IMG/VR virus record: IMGVR_UViG_3300020170_000012
Location: 1 to 64,000 of that record
From: a virus
Strand: one strand, 5' to 3'
Length of the DNA stretch: 64,000 nucleotides
Shown: positions 7,455 to 64,000 of the stretch, piece by piece
Layout: each line of letters begins with the position of its first letter
Numbering within the stretch: the stretch's first letter is position 1
Position numbers and translations under genes: made by a program
The notes under the pieces: model-generated
What the model saw: only the letters and a program-made list of their open reading frames with translations
Told to the model about the DNA's origin: nothing
Databases searched by the model: none

Positions 7455-9213
7455 CCCCGCGGCGAGATTTTGTCAGCCGTAGTGCTTTCCGGGACACACT
7501 GCCTTTGATCTTGCCGCCTTTGCGGTGGCCGTACATCTCGTGACTCTTTTTGAGCATATGTTCAACAGCTTCGTGCTTTTCGTGCTCTTTCTCCTCGGCC
7601 CCCTTTTTCATCTCTTCCGGAGCATGGGCGGGATCGCGCGCCAGCTCTCCGCGTTCGAGCATCCTGATCATTTTTTCGCCAGCACCGAGGAGCTTTGCCA
7701 GCTTGGCGAGCGGCAGGTTCCACAAGACGCTCTCGCTGATGTCGTGCATTTTATGCGCATGCTCGTGCTCGCGTTCGATGTCGCTCGTGCCGTAGCCACC
7801 TGAGAACCATGCCTGATTCGGATAGGACTGATTATTGACCGGCGGGCGCACATTGCCGGCGCCGATCTGACCGGCGAACTCGAACGGATTCTCTGGCGGC
7901 GTCGCCATGCGGGCCACATTCCGCGCGGCGGGCGAGGCAGCTTGGCTCGGCGAGATGAAGGGGTTGATCTGCTGTTGCTTGTAATCGACCTGCTGTTCGA
8001 ATGGCAGGCGGCTTGTGACATCGGGAGATGGCGGCGGCGTGCCACCGTCCTGGCGGCGCGCCACCCGTAGCGCGCGCCCAGCCTTACCGCCGCGGCGAAG
8101 GTGAAAGCCGCCAGCTACGCCTGGCCCCCCCACGGTGGGAGCGGCTTGGGTTATGCTGCCGACCGCTCCGGGCGCGCCGAAGCCGCCAGCGACCCCCGGC
8201 CCGGCCGCAGGAGGCGGCGCGGCAGCTGGCGGTGGGGTGACAGCGGGTGGCGGCGCTGTGGTGTTACCGCCGGTTAGGTTGTTGCCGAATCCACCTAAGC
8301 CCCGCAGGAATCCTGAAGAACCTCCCGCGCGAGTGAGCATGTTCATGAGGTTGGACATGCCTTGAGGTTGAGCGCCGGTGGGTGCAGCCCCCATAGCTGA
8401 CGCGGCCGGAGGCCGAGCGGCTGCAAGGGCTGAGGTTATGGTGGGAGGCAACACACCACCGCTGCCGGTCCCGCCACCGGCACCCCCCGAACCGCCGACC
8501 CCTGTGCTATCGCCGCCACCGCCACCTCCCGTTTGGCCGCCAGTCTGCCCGCCAGTCTGCCCGCCGGTTTGGCCTCCCGTTTGGCCGCCAGTCTGCCCGC
8601 CGCCACCAAGGTCTCCGGTTATCGCTCCAAGTCCGAGCCCGGCGCCGGAATTGACTGAATCCGCCATCCAGCCGGCAGCCTGCTCCGGGGATGCTGGATT
8701 CGCTTCGGACACGAAAGAACCTGCGTTGGGATCGCTTATCCCCAATGCCCCAGCCCATCCCGGTGTCGAATTAAAAGCGTCGAATACAGAGTTAAAATTC
8801 GGGGCATTAAAAGATTCCGGACTCAACCCTGAAGTTGGCCCGGTATAGCTGAAACCACCCATAGCATCGGCAGGGCCAAAACCACCCTCGGTACCAGGAC
8901 CACCCTGACCAGGGCTACCTCCTTCGTCGCCGGGGCCTGGACCACCACCTCCTTCCTCACCTTCACCGCCGCCACCCTCGCCGCCACCTTCTCCAGCACT
9001 GCCGCCGCCCTCACCCTCGGTGCCGCCGCTATCGCCGCTTATGCCCCCCTCCCCACCGCTCTCACCACTGCTACCACCGTCTTCACCGCCGTCCCCACCA
9101 TCCCCACCGTCACCGCCGTCCCCACCATCCCCACCGTCCTGGAGGTAGCGTTTCTTGCCGCCTTTCTTGTAGCGGCGAGCGACGTTCAGAGCCCGCGCCA
9201 GTTTTGCGCTCAT
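7444..9213 (-). CDS. Large low-complexity Gly-rich virion protein
   Basis: A 589-residue protein. The ATG at 9211-9213 has AAGGAG about seven bases upstream and overlaps the stop of the preceding gene (ATGA), so it is preferred to an ATG 36 codons further upstream. The sequence begins with RALNVARRYKKGGK, continues through an acidic Gly region with GGD tandem units and a block of GGQT repeats, then Pro/Ala linkers, and repeats the basic module GGKAGRALRVARRQDGG near residue 400. The C-terminal third is a charged helical domain (EREHEHAHKMHD, KEHEKHEAVEHMLKKSHEM). It is the last of three large minus-strand genes that probably encode internal or ejected virion proteins. Specific function unknown. 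Confidence 0.6.
   Translation of the reverse strand: MSAKLARALNVARRYKKGGKKRYLQDGGDGGDGGDGGDGGDGGEDGGSSGESGGEGGISGDSGGTEGEGGGSAGEGGGEGGGGEGEEGGGGPGPGDEGGSPGQGGPGTEGGFGPADAMGGFSYTGPTSGLSPESFNAPNFNSVFDAFNSTPGWAGALGISDPNAGSFVSEANPASPEQAAGWMADSVNSGAGLGLGAITGDLGGGGQTGGQTGGQTGGQTGGQTGGQTGGGGGGDSTGVGGSGGAGGGTGSGGVLPPTITSALAAARPPAASAMGAAPTGAQPQGMSNLMNMLTRAGGSSGFLRGLGGFGNNLTGGNTTAPPPAVTPPPAAAPPPAAGPGVAGGFGAPGAVGSITQAAPTVGGPGVAGGFHLRRGGKAGRALRVARRQDGGTPPPSPDVTSRLPFEQQVDYKQQQINPFISPSQAASPAARNVARMATPPENPFEFAGQIGAGNVRPPVNNQSYPNQAWFSGGYGTSDIEREHEHAHKMHDISESVLWNLPLAKLAKLLGAGEKMIRMLERGELARDPAHAPEEMKKGAEEKEHEKHEAVEHMLKKSHEMYGHRKGGKIKGSVSRKALRLTKSRRGVAA
8528..8602 (-). repeat. Tandem 12-bp repeat encoding GGQT units
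   Basis: On the coding (minus) strand about six consecutive copies of a 12-bp unit encode Gly-Gly-Gln-Thr. Copies differ mainly at third positions (both CAAACG-like and CAGACT-like versions), so they are not freshly duplicated but remain prone to slippage. Confidence 0.75.
9076..9139 (-). repeat. Tandem 9-bp repeat encoding GGD units
   Basis: On the coding strand about seven imperfect copies of a 9-bp unit encode Gly-Asp-Gly or Gly-Gly-Asp near residues 25-45 of the 589-residue virion protein. The result is an acidic, flexible segment next to a strongly basic N-terminal motif. Confidence 0.65.
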
Positions 9214-27931: not shown

Positions 27932-29967
27932 AAACTGGAATCATTATCCAGGCGCGGATGGGCTCAACCCGCTTGCCCGGCAAAGTTCTGATGAAGCTGC
28001 CGAAGGAGAATCCGCAGCGGCGCGCGCTCGATTGGACGATTGAAGCTTGTGGCAAGACGGATTTTCCTGTCTATGTCGCCACCTCAACCAATCAAGAGGA
28101 TAATGAGATTGTCGAGTATCTGGAAGGCAGATACAGCTCCCTCGGTATCTTCCGCGGCTCACCCGACGACGTGCTCGACCGCCTCTACCAATGCGCCAAG
28201 CTCCATCAGCTCGACATCATCGTCCGCGTCACCGGCGACTGTCCGTTCATAGACCCGGAGGTACTTAAGCAGGTAGTTTACCTGCGCGAGCTTACCGGGT
28301 CAGACTACGCTTCCAACGTCGACCCCCCCATGTGGCCGGACGGCCTCGACGTGCAATGCGTCACCTTGCCCGCTCTTGAGCGGGCTCACTTGTTGGCGAC
28401 AGACCCGTCCGATCGCGACACCGTCCTGCAATATATCGTTCACCGCCGCAATGAGTTCAGCGTGGCCATCCTGCCGTGCCAGCTGCCAGGCATGGCCGTT
28501 CATCGCTGGGTTCTTGACCATGCGGCGGACTACGACCTTTGTTCGCTGATCGCAACCCGTCTCCTGGTCGCTGGCAAAGGGCCTGGAGCGAGCTTCGCCG
28601 ATGTCCTGGCGGTGGCGCCGGAACCGCAGGATAGGTCTTTGCTTGGACGCAATGAGCGTTACAACACCCAGCGGACCGCAGAGCTAAAGGCGGATAGCTT
28701 TGCCATCAGCACCGCTCGGCTGCCGGTGGCATTAGCGAGACAGCCATACGGGGCGTCGACCTACAGCAAGAGCCATGTCGCCTGGGGGCGTGACGCGCCG
28801 CTGTTCCTCACGCACTCGCAGGGCTCGCGTGTGTTCGATGTCGACGGCAACGAGTTCATTGACATGACGGCCGCGCTGGGGACGACGATCCTGGGTTACT
28901 GCGATCCTTACGTCAGGGAAGCGATCGAGCGGCAGCTCGACCTTGGCATCGCCTTTCCGCTGGCATTTCATGACGAGACCATCGTTGCCAACGCGCTGAT
29001 CCACCGGCTGTTCCCAGACCATCCGTTTGGCGACCACAAGGTCGTTTTCGGCAAGAACGGCTCTGACGTCACCAGCGCCGCGGTGCGGCTGGCGCGGGTT
29101 GCCACCGGGCGCCTGCCGGTGGTCAAGCTGTACGGTGGATATCACGGATGGCACGATTGGACGGTCGCTGACAGCCCGCGCGGAGATGGCTGCATACCGC
29201 TCAACGCCGTCTTCAAGATACGAGACGATTTCACCGACGGGCAGAACGTCATCAAAGCGATCGAGGGCAACCTGATCCTTAAAACCGCCGCCTGCCTGAT
29301 CCTGGAACCCGACATGGTGCCGCCGGAGTGCCTGGGCCGCATCATCGATATTTGCCACCGCAGCGGAACCCTGGTGATCTTCGACGAGATGGTGACGGCG
29401 TTCCGATATCCGGGTGCGACCGTAGCTTCCAGCTACAGGCTACACCCCGATCTTCTCTGCTTAGGCAAAGCCTTGGGAAATGGCATGCCGATCACGGCAT
29501 TGGTCGGTAGTGCCGAGCTGATGGACAAGTTTGTCACGGGCGCCGAAGGCGCCCCCTACGCCTTCTATTCCGGAACTCACTTCGGTGAGACGTTGTCGCT
29601 TGCGGCTGCCGGCGCCGTTCTTGATCGCATGGGGCCTTATGAGCAGAGACAAATCTGCGGGATGGCCGCATACCTCTCCTCGCATGTTCATGATCTTTTA
29701 AGACATGAAATCGACGACAATCTCGCCTCGTTCAAAGGCGGCTGCATCCCTAAGCTGATGTTCCACGATCCGGATGTCGCCGCCAAGTTCCGCCGGGAGA
29801 TGGCCCACAACGGTGTGCTGTTCTACACGGCGTTCCTGCCGACCCTGATGCACACGCAAAAGGAGCTGGAGCACGTGCTCGGTGCCGTCGAGGATTCCTT
29901 GCTGGCAATCAGGAACGGCAAGGCGCGCGGTGAGGCGGTCGGCGGCAGCCGGATCATGCGCTCTTAA
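27928..29967 (+). CDS. Cytidylyltransferase (SpsF/NeuA-like)-class III aminotransferase fusion
   Basis: A 679-residue two-domain protein. Residues 1-235 are a cytidylyltransferase: IIIQARMGSTRLPGKVL (nucleotide-binding start), VRVTGDCPFIDPE, SNVDPPMWPDGLDVQ. Residues about 270-670 are a glutamate-1-semialdehyde-aminomutase-like class III aminotransferase: VFDVDGNEFIDM, FGKNGSDVTSAAVRLAR, YGGYHGWHDW, VIFDEMVTAFR and LCLGKALGNGMPI with PLP Lys514. Both halves keep their main motifs. SpsF/PseF-type domains activate acidic sugars with CTP; the second half would move or transfer an amino group on the same metabolite. It is the last gene of the plus-strand glycan run and meets the convergent gene stop-to-stop. 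Confidence 0.8.
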   Translation: MKTGIIIQARMGSTRLPGKVLMKLPKENPQRRALDWTIEACGKTDFPVYVATSTNQEDNEIVEYLEGRYSSLGIFRGSPDDVLDRLYQCAKLHQLDIIVRVTGDCPFIDPEVLKQVVYLRELTGSDYASNVDPPMWPDGLDVQCVTLPALERAHLLATDPSDRDTVLQYIVHRRNEFSVAILPCQLPGMAVHRWVLDHAADYDLCSLIATRLLVAGKGPGASFADVLAVAPEPQDRSLLGRNERYNTQRTAELKADSFAISTARLPVALARQPYGASTYSKSHVAWGRDAPLFLTHSQGSRVFDVDGNEFIDMTAALGTTILGYCDPYVREAIERQLDLGIAFPLAFHDETIVANALIHRLFPDHPFGDHKVVFGKNGSDVTSAAVRLARVATGRLPVVKLYGGYHGWHDWTVADSPRGDGCIPLNAVFKIRDDFTDGQNVIKAIEGNLILKTAACLILEPDMVPPECLGRIIDICHRSGTLVIFDEMVTAFRYPGATVASSYRLHPDLLCLGKALGNGMPITALVGSAELMDKFVTGAEGAPYAFYSGTHFGETLSLAAAGAVLDRMGPYEQRQICGMAAYLSSHVHDLLRHEIDDNLASFKGGCIPKLMFHDPDVAAKFRREMAHNGVLFYTAFLPTLMHTQKELEHVLGAVEDSLLAIRNGKARGEAVGGSRIMRS

Positions 29968-43599: not shown

Positions 43600-43828
43600 C
43601 TTGGGTCTTAAGCCGCTCGACCAGCGTCCGCATCGCGACGAGCTGGAACTCCATCAGCAACAGTGTGACCTTGGACAGCTCGATGATAGCTGAGGCTGAG
43701 GTGTCGTATTCGCCCAGGCGCTCGCGCTCTTTTACGAATCCGCGCATCTCCTTGAGGTAGGATTCGAGCTGCTCAATCATCGCGGGGAGTTGTGCGAGCG
43801 CATCGTTGGCGTCTATCTTCGAGTCCAT
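43589..43828 (-). CDS. Antisense small helical protein at the terL start
   Basis: A 79-residue protein on the minus strand with a strong ribosome site (AAAGGAG, seven bases before ATG). It is fully helical: DANDALAQLPAMIEQLESYL, KEMRGFVKERERLGEYD, SKVTLLLMEFQLVAMRTLVE. It is the only minus-strand gene recognised between 37 and 64 kb. Its ATG and the terL ATG share the palindrome CATG, so the two genes start back to back with overlapping start codons. Confidence 0.55.
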   Translation of the reverse strand: MDSKIDANDALAQLPAMIEQLESYLKEMRGFVKERERLGEYDTSASAIIELSKVTLLLMEFQLVAMRTLVERLKTQATE

Positions 43829-45578
43829 GCCATCTCCTTTCGAAATTGCTGTTCGCAACGCTGCCCTGGCCGCCGAGATGGGGACCAAGCAGCTTTGCGA
43901 GGAATCGCTGATCGAGCTGACTGCCTATCTGTGGGACGTCGCCGACCCTGGCGAGCCGCTGGTGGGCGGCTGGGCCATGGATGCCATAGCCGACCATCTG
44001 GAGGCAACCTTTTATGACCACATCAAACGGCTTCTTATCACTGTTCCGCCGGGGTTCTCGAAATCGTCACTCACAAATGTCTTTTTTCCGCTCTGGGTCT
44101 GGCTGCGAACACCACACGCCAGATTTATCGGGGCTAGCTACGAGTCCGGCATTCCGGAGCGCGACAATCTCAAGTGCCGTCGACTCATCCAACACGAGAA
44201 GTGGCAGCGATTTTGGGCAGATCGCTTTACGCTCATCGTCCCTACCACCGTTGAGCGCTTTGAGAACGACCGAACCGGATGGAAGATGGCCACCGCCGTC
44301 GGCGCTAAGCTCCTCGGCTATCGCGGCAACTACATCATCATCGACGACGCCAACGATCCCTCGATCGAACACCAGTCCGGCGCCAAGCGCATTCAAGCGG
44401 TTCGTTGGTTTCGCGAGGTGGTTCCGACAAGATTGAACAACATGAGCCGTGACAAGATCATCGCCATCCAGCAGCGTCTGCACATGGAAGACGTCGCCGG
44501 TACCGCTCTGAGCCTGGAACACGAGAACTACGTCCACCTCAACATTCCGATGGAATACGAGCCGCGGACCTACATCAACGCCTGGGCGCCGCCGGACTTG
44601 GATGATCCAGATGGTCCTGACCAGATCGTCACTCTGTTCGACGAAACTGCTGAGGCCGCGGTCGCGAGCGATCCTGACGCCATCTACTGGCAGGACCCGC
44701 GCACCGAACCCGGCGAGCTGGCGTGGCCTGAGCGGTTTACCGCCAAGATGGTGGCCGTGCTCAAGAAGACGCTGGGCAAGACCATGTCGTCAGCCCAGCT
44801 CCAACAGCGCCCGGTGCCGCGCGGCGGCAACATCATCAGAACCGAGAGTTGGAAGTTGTGGGATAAGGATATTTATCCTACGTTCTCCTACGTTCTTGCC
44901 ACACTCGACACCGCCTACACTGAGAAGACGTCGAACGATCCGTCGGGCATCACCATCTGGGGCTTGTTCTACGACAACACCGGAATGGTCGACGTCCGCC
45001 TTGTCGACCGCATGGGCAAGCAACTCCCGCTGATGGAGGAGGAAGGCAACCCCAAGGTCATGCTGATCTATGCCTGGACTGATAACCTGGAACTCAACGA
45101 CCTTGTCCGCCGGGTCCTGCATACCTGCACCAGGAATCAGCTCAATTACGGGGCCGACCTGCAAGGGCAGCCTCGCTTCCCGGTCGATACGCTCGTCATC
45201 GAGGGAAAGGCTTCCGGTCTAAGTGTCCAACAGGAGATCACCCGCCTGCTGACGCTCGGCCGCGGGCGCACGCTCAACGTCGAGATGCTGCCGGCAAAAT
45301 TGTTAAGGGATGACAAATTGTCGCGGCTGGTTTCTGTCTCACATCTGTTCGAAAACGAGGTGGTCTACGCTCCCGACAAGGAGTTCGCTGGCAAGGTGAT
45401 AGACCAAGTTGGAAATTTTCCTTACACCACCCACGACGAGTACGTCGACTGCACTTCGATGGCGATGCGTTGGTTCCGCGACCACGGCTTTGCACCGACT
45501 CGCGAGGAGCTGTTCGAGGAGGCCGACAACGCGGTCGCTTACAAGCCAAAGATGAAACCGCTCTATGGAGGAATTTGA
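43827..45578 (+). CDS. terL: Terminase large subunit
   Basis: A 583-residue packaging ATPase-nuclease. Walker A-like ITVPPGFSKSS (residues 71-81), Walker B NYIIIDDAND (168-176), and the nuclease-domain Asp in ATLDTAYTEKTSNDPSG (Asp361), followed by DTLVIEGKASG and TTHDEYVDCTSMAMRW. Length and motif spacing are normal. It cleaves and translocates DNA into the prohead bound to the portal. The ATG at 43827 has no visible Shine-Dalgarno; an upstream TTG at 43806 is possible. Confidence 0.95.
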   Translation: MPSPFEIAVRNAALAAEMGTKQLCEESLIELTAYLWDVADPGEPLVGGWAMDAIADHLEATFYDHIKRLLITVPPGFSKSSLTNVFFPLWVWLRTPHARFIGASYESGIPERDNLKCRRLIQHEKWQRFWADRFTLIVPTTVERFENDRTGWKMATAVGAKLLGYRGNYIIIDDANDPSIEHQSGAKRIQAVRWFREVVPTRLNNMSRDKIIAIQQRLHMEDVAGTALSLEHENYVHLNIPMEYEPRTYINAWAPPDLDDPDGPDQIVTLFDETAEAAVASDPDAIYWQDPRTEPGELAWPERFTAKMVAVLKKTLGKTMSSAQLQQRPVPRGGNIIRTESWKLWDKDIYPTFSYVLATLDTAYTEKTSNDPSGITIWGLFYDNTGMVDVRLVDRMGKQLPLMEEEGNPKVMLIYAWTDNLELNDLVRRVLHTCTRNQLNYGADLQGQPRFPVDTLVIEGKASGLSVQQEITRLLTLGRGRTLNVEMLPAKLLRDDKLSRLVSVSHLFENEVVYAPDKEFAGKVIDQVGNFPYTTHDEYVDCTSMAMRWFRDHGFAPTREELFEEADNAVAYKPKMKPLYGGI

Positions 45579-45621
45579 TGATTGACTAATTGTATTTCAA
45601 TTATTAAATAAATTCTCTCTG

Positions 45622-45821
45622 GGCTAGGCATGGCATGGCGAGTCCAGGCGCGGCTGGGAGCGGCGCGGCCAGGCGGGGCGAGGCGAGGCGGGGCGCGGCG
45701 CGGCACGGAACGGCCAGGCCCGGTTGGGCAAGGCACGGCGGGGCACGGCGCGGCCTGGCACGGCAGGGCAAGGCGCAGCACGGCAGGGACCGGCAAGGCG
45801 CGGCGAGGCAAGGCGAGGCTA
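45622..45821. repeat. (GGCNN)40 pentanucleotide array, upstream copy
   Basis: Forty consecutive 5-bp units with no length change, consensus GGC followed by two variable bases (mostly AA, AC, GC, GA, AT). A few units deviate in the GGC part (for example GTCCA, GGAGC, GGTTG). It begins 44 bases after the terL stop and ends 28 bases before the ATG of the next gene. All frames are open across it, so apparent proteins over it are repeat artefacts. Confidence 0.95.
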
Positions 45822-45848
45822 TCATGACACCAAGAAAGGGCACTAACG

Positions 45849-46454
45849 ATGAAACCAGTAGATGTGAAAATTGCGAAGCGGGTCGAATTAACAACGCGAA
45901 AGATCAGGTTGATCGGTCTGACCGACATCATGTTCGATCGATACCCTGGAGACAACAACACTCAGCTCGAACCGCACCAGAAATTGTACCTGGAACCCGG
46001 AGACTCGCGAATTATTGGTCTGCCCTCGATCAACATTATGAGCTTTCTTTCGGCCCACAACACAAATTCCGCACCGAAACGGCTACGCGACAAAAGAAAG
46101 TTTAAGGACATTGCCAACGCAATGCTGTCATTCGTTTCGATCAAGGAGTTGTTCATACCGCTGATACGTGACGGTAAGCCAATCGTGTTCGGAGGGTTCG
46201 ACGGTGATCGCGATCCACTGAGCGGAGCATACATCCACCGCGCGGTAGCCCGTCTCGACAAAGGGATTCCCAATCCGAAGGTTCGGCCTGTCGTTCCGTT
46301 GGATTGGAGCATCGAATTTACAATGGACATTTTTTCAAACCGTGAGATTCGGGAGGTGGACATTCAGAATTTGATCGAGGAAGGTGGCCGCGCTGTCGGT
46401 CTTGGCACTTGGCGTGGAGTCTTTGGCAAGTTTTTAGTTGACGCTTGGGATTGA
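45849..46454 (+). CDS. Unknown protein bracketed by pentanucleotide arrays
   Basis: A 201-residue protein. Beta-rich N-terminus (VKIAKRVELTTRKIRLIGLT), central helices (KRKFKDIANAMLSFVSIKEL), then GAYIHRAVARLDKGIPNPKV, RPVVPLDWSIEFTMDIFSN and a Gly-rich C-terminal loop (GGRAVGLGTWRGVFGKF). The ending resembles the glycine-rich loops of ferredoxin-fold RNA-binding (RAMP-like) proteins, but that is only a shape impression. Codon use is less GC-biased than its neighbours. It sits exactly between two GGCNN arrays, between terL and the structural genes, suggesting a unit inserted as a whole. Confidence 0.6.
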   Translation: MKPVDVKIAKRVELTTRKIRLIGLTDIMFDRYPGDNNTQLEPHQKLYLEPGDSRIIGLPSINIMSFLSAHNTNSAPKRLRDKRKFKDIANAMLSFVSIKELFIPLIRDGKPIVFGGFDGDRDPLSGAYIHRAVARLDKGIPNPKVRPVVPLDWSIEFTMDIFSNREIREVDIQNLIEEGGRAVGLGTWRGVFGKFLVDAWD

Positions 46455-46458
46455 ACGT

Positions 46459-46568
46459 GGCTGGGCACGGCATGGCTGGGCAAGGCCCGGCGAGGCATGG
46501 CGAGGCGAGTCCGGGCACGGCAAGGCTGGGTGCGGCAGGGTATGGCATGGCAAGGCAAGGCAAGGCAT
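46459..46568. repeat. (GGCNN)22 pentanucleotide array, downstream copy
   Basis: Twenty-two consecutive 5-bp units, perfectly in register, starting five bases after the stop of the bracketed gene and ending four bases before the next ATG. Same orientation and same unit type as the upstream array, but unit order is different, so the arrays are not simple recent copies of each other. Confidence 0.95.
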
Positions 46569-46571
46569 TTA

Positions 46572-46817
46572 ATGCAGAACAAATTGATCTGGGTGTACCA
46601 AAACGGCCGCATGTCGCCGCAGCTCTGTCACGACGCGCCAGATCACAAGACCGTCGGGATAGCCAAGGTCGTAGCCAAGTTCAACCTGACTGTCGATGAT
46701 CTCAAGCTGAGCTTCGACGAGCTGGTCGCCAAGTATCCGGCGCCGAGCGCGGTCGACGCCGAAGTTATTCCACCCCCGGCGCCTCTCCTTCGGCAGCCTG
46801 GATTTCCGCCGGAATGA
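46572..46817 (+). CDS. 81-aa hypothetical protein
   Basis: Starts at the ATG right after the repeat array: MQNKLIWVYQNGRMSPQLCH, then FNLTVDDLKLSFDELVAKYP and a Pro-rich end. Upstream in-frame starts lie within the array and are not used here. Unknown function, possibly a small head-region protein. Confidence 0.5.
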   Translation: MQNKLIWVYQNGRMSPQLCHDAPDHKTVGIAKVVAKFNLTVDDLKLSFDELVAKYPAPSAVDAEVIPPPAPLLRQPGFPPE

Positions 46818-46895: not shown

Positions 46896-47342
46896 ATGTT
46901 TAACTGGTGGCGCCGGCATCATCCTCCATCGAACTTCCCGCCGGCACCCGCTTTCATCAAGCGCCTGACGCTGCGCGTCAGCTACAATCCGAGGAGCAAA
47001 AAAGCCATGTCAACTGTACTTCTTGAATGGGATGACCCGACGGTCCGGACCGATACCCCGCCGACTGCCCTGCCGCCCGCCGAGATCATGGAGATCGATG
47101 TTTTCGATTTTCCTGACACTCCCGGTGTTCCTACGGTCAACACGCAGATCGGCACCGTTCCCGGTCCCGGGACGTCGTTTGCGACCGGGACTCTCGACGT
47201 TGGCGTCCATCGCTTTACTGTCGTGGTCCGTGACACCACTGGCCATGTCTCGGCGCCGTCGAACGTGGCGACCATTACCGTGCCGGCCACCCAGGCACCG
47301 CCGGCCGCCGTCACCAACCTGCGGGCTACCCTCCAGCCCTGA
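46896..47342 (+). CDS. Ig/fibronectin-III-like domain protein
   Basis: A 148-residue protein. After a basic N-terminus the rest is a beta sandwich: TVLLEWDDPTVRTDTP, then VGVHRFTVVVRDTTGHVSAP and SNVATITVPATQAPP. The pattern (V-x-x-x-D-x-x-G-x-x-S-x-P-S-x-x-x-x-V-x-V-P) is that of fibronectin type III/bacterial Ig-like domains on phage virions. An internal start MSTVLLEW (47007) would leave only the domain. Possibly a surface decoration. Confidence 0.6.
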   Translation: MFNWWRRHHPPSNFPPAPAFIKRLTLRVSYNPRSKKAMSTVLLEWDDPTVRTDTPPTALPPAEIMEIDVFDFPDTPGVPTVNTQIGTVPGPGTSFATGTLDVGVHRFTVVVRDTTGHVSAPSNVATITVPATQAPPAAVTNLRATLQP

Positions 47343-62536: not shown

Positions 62537-64000
62537 TGGGTTTCGTCCAAGGTACTTCAGCCAATAACAATGCGAGCGGCGGTGCGCTGACCGCCACCTT
62601 CGGCGCTGGCGTAGGGGCCGGTAATTGCGTCTGGGGCTTGGCAACTTGGGGAGACGCAACTTCAACGCCGACTATCACGGTCGGCGGCGTCTCGGCAACA
62701 ATTCTCGATACCATCAGAGACGTTGGCAACGCCAGCAGCGCCTCGACCTTCATTTTAGGTAATATCTCCGGCGCGCCTACGTCAGTTGTCTTTACGCCGA
62801 GCGCGTCGGCCACCTTCAGGACCGTGGTCGCGATCGAGGAAAGCGGCTGTCTCGCAGTCGCTAATCCGACCGATGTTCACACCGGGCAGCTTCAGACTAC
62901 TCCGGGCACTGGCGCAAATATTCTCACTTCCGGCAACGCTACCACGACAGTCGCGAATGACATCATCGTCGGTGCGAGCACAAATGAGACAAGCGGCACC
63001 ACTGTCACCGCAGGCACCTCCCCGAACGCCTTCACGTTGCGAACGACGAACGCTGCGGGTATCCCAGTCTCCACTGAAGATGAAGTTATAAAAGCCGTTG
63101 CTGGCGCCGTCGCCGCAACGTTTGGCCAGACGGTAAATAACACCAACATCACCTTGATGATTGCGATCAAACCGTCTAGCGGAACGGTCGTTGTCAGCAA
63201 TTGGTTTGCGCCTCTCAGTGAGCCACCGCGGTCCAATCCGCGACTTCTGCCGTCACAGCAGCAGGCGATCGCGTTCCCTGTCAATTTCTCGATTCCGAGT
63301 CACGGTTGGTTTGCGCCGTTGAGCGAGCCGATCCGCCGCCAACCTCCGCGTCCGCCGACGCAGGACATATTCTTTCCTGTCAATTTCTCGATACCGAGCT
63401 TTGGTTGGTTTGAGCCTCTCAGCGAGCCCACCCGTCGGCCATTGCCTCGCCCGCCTCCTGTCGATGAGGGATTCGTCACTGTCATTACGCCAGCCGCGCC
63501 GTCTTTTGGCTGGTTTGCACCGCTGGCGGAACCTGCACGTCTACCGCCCAGGTCTCCCATCGGGGCTAGACCCGATCTGGCGTTCCCGGTCAATTTCTCG
63601 ATTCCGTCGTTCGGATGGTACGGCCCGCTATCTGAGCCGACACGCAGACCGCGATCGCCGGTCGGCTGGATGCCCGATCTGGCGTTTTCGGTTAATTTCT
63701 TCGTTCCGAGCTTTGGCTGGTTTGCCCCCTTGAGCGAGCCGCCACGGCCGCCGCCACGGCTCACAGAGCGTCAGTGGCTGGCCCTGCCGCCTTTCCCCAT
63801 CATTCCGTCGTTCGGATGGTACGGCCCCCTCAGCGAGCCCGTGAGGCCGCCTCCAAAGCTATTGGCGAGCCAACAGCAGACGCTGGCCTATGGGTGGTTC
63901 ACGCCGCCCACCACGGTCACCTTCGGGTGGTTTGTGCCATTGACGGAGCCTGTCAGGGCGCCGCGGAAGTTGCCGTCCGGGGCTCAACCCAATCTCGCGT
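62536..64000 (+). CDS. Virion protein with beta domain and GW-PLSEP tandem repeats, 3'-partial
   Basis: The frame is open to the end of the window (488 codons visible). The first 220 residues form a beta-rich domain (GTSANNNASGGALTATFGAG, ISGAPTSVVFTPSASATF, TLMIAIKPSSGTVVV). From 63208 the protein changes to tandem repeats of about 32-37 residues with the core (S/F)-G-W-(F/Y)-x-P-L-S-E-P-x-R and P-x-x-F-P-V-N-F-S-I-P-S-F spacers. This motif type is known from phage virion proteins as a Pro-rich repeat tail. The end lies beyond the window. Confidence 0.65.
   Translation, partial: MGFVQGTSANNNASGGALTATFGAGVGAGNCVWGLATWGDATSTPTITVGGVSATILDTIRDVGNASSASTFILGNISGAPTSVVFTPSASATFRTVVAIEESGCLAVANPTDVHTGQLQTTPGTGANILTSGNATTTVANDIIVGASTNETSGTTVTAGTSPNAFTLRTTNAAGIPVSTEDEVIKAVAGAVAATFGQTVNNTNITLMIAIKPSSGTVVVSNWFAPLSEPPRSNPRLLPSQQQAIAFPVNFSIPSHGWFAPLSEPIRRQPPRPPTQDIFFPVNFSIPSFGWFEPLSEPTRRPLPRPPPVDEGFVTVITPAAPSFGWFAPLAEPARLPPRSPIGARPDLAFPVNFSIPSFGWYGPLSEPTRRPRSPVGWMPDLAFSVNFFVPSFGWFAPLSEPPRPPPRLTERQWLALPPFPIIPSFGWYGPLSEPVRPPPKLLASQQQTLAYGWFTPPTTVTFGWFVPLTEPVRAPRKLPSGAQPNLA
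63208..64000 (+). repeat. GW(F/Y)xPLSEP tandem protein repeats
   Basis: Seven repeats with a full G-W-F/Y-x-P-L-x-E-P-x-R core (starting near 63208, 63310, 63409, 63508, 63610, 63715, 63817), a partial GWFTPPTT, then another full one, truncated by the window end. DNA identity is clear only over the GWF-PLSEP and VNFSIPSF codons, so repeats have diverged. Confidence 0.85.

Follow-up and report, generated by a model that had tools for sequence, protein, structure and literature searches.

The closest described counterpart of the locus analyzed here is VIPR, a phage-encoded combination of a minimal RAMP protein and guide RNAs (vrRNAs) of alternating GGY and NN, first reported in 2026 as RNA-guided DNA recognition that is older than CRISPR and uses a gapped code (PMC13142463). 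The NN dinucleotides of a vrRNA read DNA with a one-base skip, and RNA binding, the one-base skip and repression are known from work on SUSP1 and P. fulva (PMC13142463). VIPR is located mainly in viruses and proviruses, an accessory vap gene is typical of it and not universal, and the Vipr protein is characterized by an RRM core, a G-loop and a thumb domain contacting the guide (PMC13142463). Published vrRNAs comprise 9-16 repeats, and the main text of the report calls array architectures variable (PMC13142463). Among types I-VII, the SUSP1 system represents type II, its arrays are reported to be functional, and vrRNAs of the SUSP1 clade carry an invariant structured 3' tail (PMC13142463). In Escherichia phage SUSP1 (cited under accession KT454805 in PMC5241400), we found the gene at 28474-29061 to adjoin GGY arrays of 11, 15 and 14 units, and units in these arrays deviate from GGY too (AGT, TGT and GTT).

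We analyzed a stretch of 64,000 nucleotides, here called the window, that is part of a virus record of 67,782 bases. On its plus strand, two arrays of five-base units bracket a single gene, an upstream array of 40 units (A1, 45622..45821), 35 of which begin with GGY, and a downstream array of 22 units (A2, 46459..46568), 21 of which do so. Unit starts are GGC in 34 of 40 cases in A1, the rest being GTC, GGA (three times), GGT and AGC, and in 19 of 22 cases in A2, accompanied by two GGT and one GTC; when both arrays are pooled, GGY is present in 56/62 units and GGC in 53/62. The five-base register shows zero slips in either array, and an earlier note on this DNA, which had described 40 and 22 units in strict register around one gene, was right to the base. 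The last three units of A1 (GGCAA GGCGA GGCTA; 45807..45821, plus strand) form an A-rich end that is conserved across the clade described below, and A2 terminates with GGCAA GGCAA GGCAA GGCAT. Entropy amounts to 0.00-0.55 bits at unit positions 1-3 and to 1.60-1.95 bits at positions 4-5, where 12 and 9 of the 16 possible dinucleotides are present in the two arrays; the earlier view that the period does not reflect plain slippage agrees with these nearly fixed first three bases and variable NN. The arrays score 30 and 20, whereas the highest score was 5 among 40 Markov-1 simulated sequences of 64 kb and 6 among 40 simulations with the array's own composition. Clearly, the regularity of A1 and A2 is far beyond chance. 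Both are presumed to be vrRNA guide regions, A1 being a long one. The RNA of the window arrays folded no better than shuffled sequences (z-scores of -0.03 and 0.03), which speaks against the structured transcript considered in the earlier note, and scans for sigma-70 promoters and terminators gave nothing above shuffles, with no sigma-70 promoter match. Other tandem repeats in the window, at 8531-8602, 9083-9139 and 63277-63455 (periods of 36, 27 and 99), are unrelated to the arrays.

The bracketed gene, vipr (45849..46454, plus strand), encodes a protein of 201 amino acids that is identified by homology and fold as a Cas7-like RAMP. The window protein has zero family matches in Pfam; its C-terminal part matches PHROG family phrog_4652 (E 2e-7), of which SUSP1 Vipr is a full-length member (E 1.4e-96). 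A clade profile built from the window protein together with 13 relatives (14 sequences) had a sole sequence match in the PDB, 36pp_D, 'SUSP1 Vipr protein' (E 6.5e-5), and hhalign against SUSP1 Vipr gave an E-value of 1.7e-8. An AF2 model of the protein was obtained with a pLDDT of 79.8, confidence being 50-70 around residues 31-40 and 71-90, and a thumb domain was not assigned in it. Foldseek gave 20 matches for this model in the PDB at E<=0.001, each of them a chain from a CRISPR effector complex (Csm, Cmr, type VII or another class 1 effector), and VIA comparison of the model with Csm3/Cas7 yielded Z-scores of up to 11.4. In the alignment, the C-terminus EEGGRAVGLGTWRGVFGKF corresponds to the conserved glycine-rich loop of the RAMP fold (residues 179-193; 46383..46427, plus strand). 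The protein is thus Vipr, a minimal one-domain Cas7-like RAMP of the same family as SUSP1 Vipr. A tblastn search with the window protein against 50,697 phage records returned zero matches, and zero padloc models matched five Vipr proteins. Among the structural matches in BFVD is A0A8S5R426 (Siphoviridae sp. ctcMb1), which is named 'Cas system-associated RAMP superfamily protein'. In one relative (L009:5001-5589) the vipr frame is broken near the C-terminus, so that the glycine loop is lost from the translation; a second overlapping frame matches the Vipr profile too, as would result from a frameshift or a sequencing error.

The locus therefore shares with SUSP1 VIPR a RAMP of the phrog_4652/36pp family and GGY/NN arrays that flank the gene on either side and share its strand, within a phage genome, and we consider it very likely that it is a VIPR system, that is, a phage-borne RNA-guided DNA-binding system. 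The two loci differ in that SUSP1 has GGT-rich arrays of 11-15 units and is reported to possess a vap gene as well as a folded tail, whereas the window has GGC-rich arrays of 40 and 22 units and neither a conserved neighbour nor a conserved folded tail was seen. Like the RAMPs of class 1 CRISPR-Cas (Csm3, Cmr4 and type VII Cas7), with which fold comparison gives Z-scores of 9-11, Vipr possesses a C-terminal glycine loop, and repeated subunits along a guide RNA are the common working model for both. Unlike class 1 CRISPR-Cas, the locus has a single small protein and no repeat-spacer array, and guide information would reside in the last two bases of each five-base unit; the locus has 5-bp units and one RAMP gene in place of several cas genes and an array in which unrelated spacers separate long identical repeats.

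Arrays and vipr go together well beyond the window. Protein searches yielded Vipr relatives of 52-77% identity at 14 viral loci and two genome loci, so that 14 of the 16 relatives lie in viral contigs. GGCNN arrays adjoin vipr on the same strand in all 16, and an exact six-unit array pattern is present in 15/17 whole records, on a single strand in each; the two records that do not contain it (L012 and L013) have interrupted arrays. The arrays of three loci (L003, L004 and L005) are identical to one another. Counting 15 distinct loci including the window, arrays are placed on both sides of the gene in ten and downstream only in five. A protein-blind scan of viral contigs for nine GGY motifs at a 5-bp period gave at least 120 array loci. 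Among the matches listed, a Vipr profile that had been iterated and partly trained on matches in the first 80 array loci found Vipr at 89/120 of them, and the unrefined seed profile, made from the window clade and SUSP1, found it at 34/80; none of 27 control loci matched the Vipr profile. Among the same listed matches, vipr and the array nearest to it share a strand in 88 of 89 cases, lying a median of 38 bp apart and within 300 bp in 70. These figures answer the check proposed in the earlier note, whether such arrays flank one and the same gene family, in that the arrays belong to the family of the bracketed gene, and this protein-blind finding that viral GGYNN arrays travel with Vipr independently supports the 2026 report of VIPR. 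The 31/120 array loci that had no Vipr match among the matches listed include L053, L066, L074, L092, L105, L123 and L159; some are cut near the array, some are of low complexity (L159 is a low-complexity repeat) and some have possibly diverged.

By analogy with the described systems, it is very probable that A1 and A2 code for guide RNAs with which rival DNA is found and silenced. The phage would transcribe RNAs from both arrays, and Vipr would line up along the array RNA with one subunit per GGCNN unit, each subunit holding one GGC and leaving the NN exposed. The dinucleotides would then read double-stranded DNA as NN-x-NN-x, passing over one base in each unit, and would block transcription in a rival phage, prophage or satellite, such elements being the presumed targets. 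Each long array may act as one guide; following the rule given in PMC13142463, 40 units would span about 120 bp of target. Evidence for the identity of the locus as VIPR is strong, and its activity is proposed by analogy.

No target was found for any guide tested in the following searches. When 44 arrays of the clade and SUSP1 were compared with about 0.23 Mb of sequence at skips of 0-3, there was no excess, and in local scans matches at the one-base skip did not clearly outnumber those at the alternative skips of 0, 2 and 3 or those of shuffles. The top matches of 471 arrays against all collected loci were of low complexity, GC-rich or pre-selected (for example, L159 to L026 and L097 to L091). 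In viral contigs, nine-dinucleotide windows of W-A1, L002 and L003 had 0 matches each, and eight-dinucleotide windows had 26 matches for L006 and nine for W-A2, none of which extends past the seed; each of these collection scans was confined to a single window from a single array, and the targets may be absent from IMG/VR. In 237 genomes of the family of a Methylococcaceae MAG, the L016 and L007 guides matched once each, as compared with one and two matches for controls. We also tried to fit NN to codon positions 1-2, which was the best of six phases; the fit is weak and confounded by base composition, and it was rejected. The zero targets in these searches would suit a genuine cassette that has decayed, its arrays being relics whose guides have lost their function in this phage, and so would the non-GGY units in A1 (5/40) and A2 (1/22), given that L002 and L006 have almost exclusively GGY units in their arrays. 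However, the SUSP1 arrays, reported as functional (PMC13142463), deviate similarly, the vipr frame of the window is intact and keeps the invariant residues of the family, and the array register is perfect over 200 bp, so that we regard decay as unlikely.

The VIPR cassette behaves as a unit in the one close terL relative found, L166, which is 90% identical in terL at the nucleotide level. In the window, the flanking gene for the terminase large subunit (terL, 43806..45578, plus strand; phrog_38, E 2.5e-64) and a small flanking ORF (46572..46817, plus strand) lie outside the system. Between the same two flanking genes, L166 has a stretch of 883 bp that contains no arrays or vipr and instead carries a tyrosine recombinase gene (PF00589, E 1.5e-6; L166:6267-7157), exactly in the slot that array-vipr-array occupies between terL and portal in the window (45582..46570, plus strand). 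Homology between the window and L166 ends at 45581, just past the terL stop, and restarts at 46571, just ahead of the start codon of the small ORF. Since homology breaks on both cassette edges, the two arrays and vipr were exchanged together, and array-vipr-array is one exchangeable cassette. The earlier note had placed the arrays between terL and the portal operon; terL is indeed upstream and an SU10-type portal (PF23899) downstream, but two short ORFs, the small flanking one and a second at 46896..47342, intervene before the portal. Its proposal of a mobile unit holds for the block, which is exchanged whole, but not for arrays as the ends of that unit, given the downstream-only placement at 5/15 distinct loci. 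A search with terL in phages did not reveal the host.

Exchange as a block would also be expected if the arrays were duplex DNA sites, such as an operator, a packaging signal, an origin or a recombination site, bound by the bracketed protein. Yet RAMP is an RNA-binding fold in its solved relatives, such sites would need neither to keep to one strand with respect to the gene nor to contain two hypervariable bases per unit, and gene contexts differ among relatives: no vipr neighbour within 3 kb is shared, with one cross-locus homologous pair among 405 ORFs at 14 loci, and a conserved vap gene was likewise not found there. We consider DNA sites very unlikely, and the packaging signal of the earlier note in particular does not fit these differing neighbourhoods; its protein-binding array can be retained in a changed form, in which the protein most likely binds RNA derived from the array rather than the array as duplex DNA.

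In a Vipr tree of 105 sequences, the window protein falls into a clade apart from SUSP1. Arrays of this clade exceed 16 units in 25/41 cases (median 19, maximum 45), compared with 13% of 427 arrays (median 11) at array-found loci among the matches listed, a comparison that joins sets found by different routes. Array length is uneven inside the clade, with 7-13 units in L007 and L016 and 16-40 in L002, L006 and the window. A1 and A2, both uninterrupted, exceed the published range of 9-16 repeats; because PMC13142463 treats architecture as variable and does not define the family by that range, we take their length as a difference between variants. The second N is A in 36/40, 28/40 and 31/40 clade arrays at the last three units and in about a quarter further in. 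A GG-ATTT-like sequence occurs in part of the clade, and L002 and L006 have a short common AT-rich tail between successive arrays that the window does not have. Long arrays were also considered as chains of short guides, and this was rejected as they contain no internal copies of the A-rich end: internal A-ending runs are not enriched (four seen versus a shuffle mean of 5.6), so the long arrays bear no internal tail mark, which by itself does not prove them to be single guides. L010 and L011, which are near relatives, have a run of units in common and diverge in the 5' part, which shows that arrays change between such closely related loci. This difference in length and content is what neutral slippage near a gene by accident would also produce, but that explanation is contradicted by the family-wide association of arrays with Vipr and their strand agreement, as well as by the contrast within the unit, whose last two bases take most of their possible values and whose first three do not, and its probability is negligible.

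As an extension of the VIPR reading, we tentatively suggest, as possible rather than probable, that the clade represents a distinct long-guide, accessory-free type, in which an array of about 20-45 units would be one guide, read by a filament with one Vipr subunit for each array unit over up to roughly 120 bp of target, with a conserved A-rich end block instead of a folded tail and with the whole cassette traded between phages at gene junctions. Judged against the main text of PMC13142463, this architecture may be new; the supplement of that report may already cover it. A clade of single-gene cassettes whose guides are longer by a factor of two to three would be a test of code scaling and of the need for an accessory gene and, because near relatives differ in array length, of how guides grow. 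The dinucleotide CT is nearly absent at the variable positions, with 0.7% of 669 inner units in 41 clade arrays. On a separate branch of the tree, other VIPR loci likewise combine Vipr with GGYNN arrays, which are much longer and reach 140 and 173 units beside Vipr (L062:6311-7010 and L107:8059-8923, respectively).
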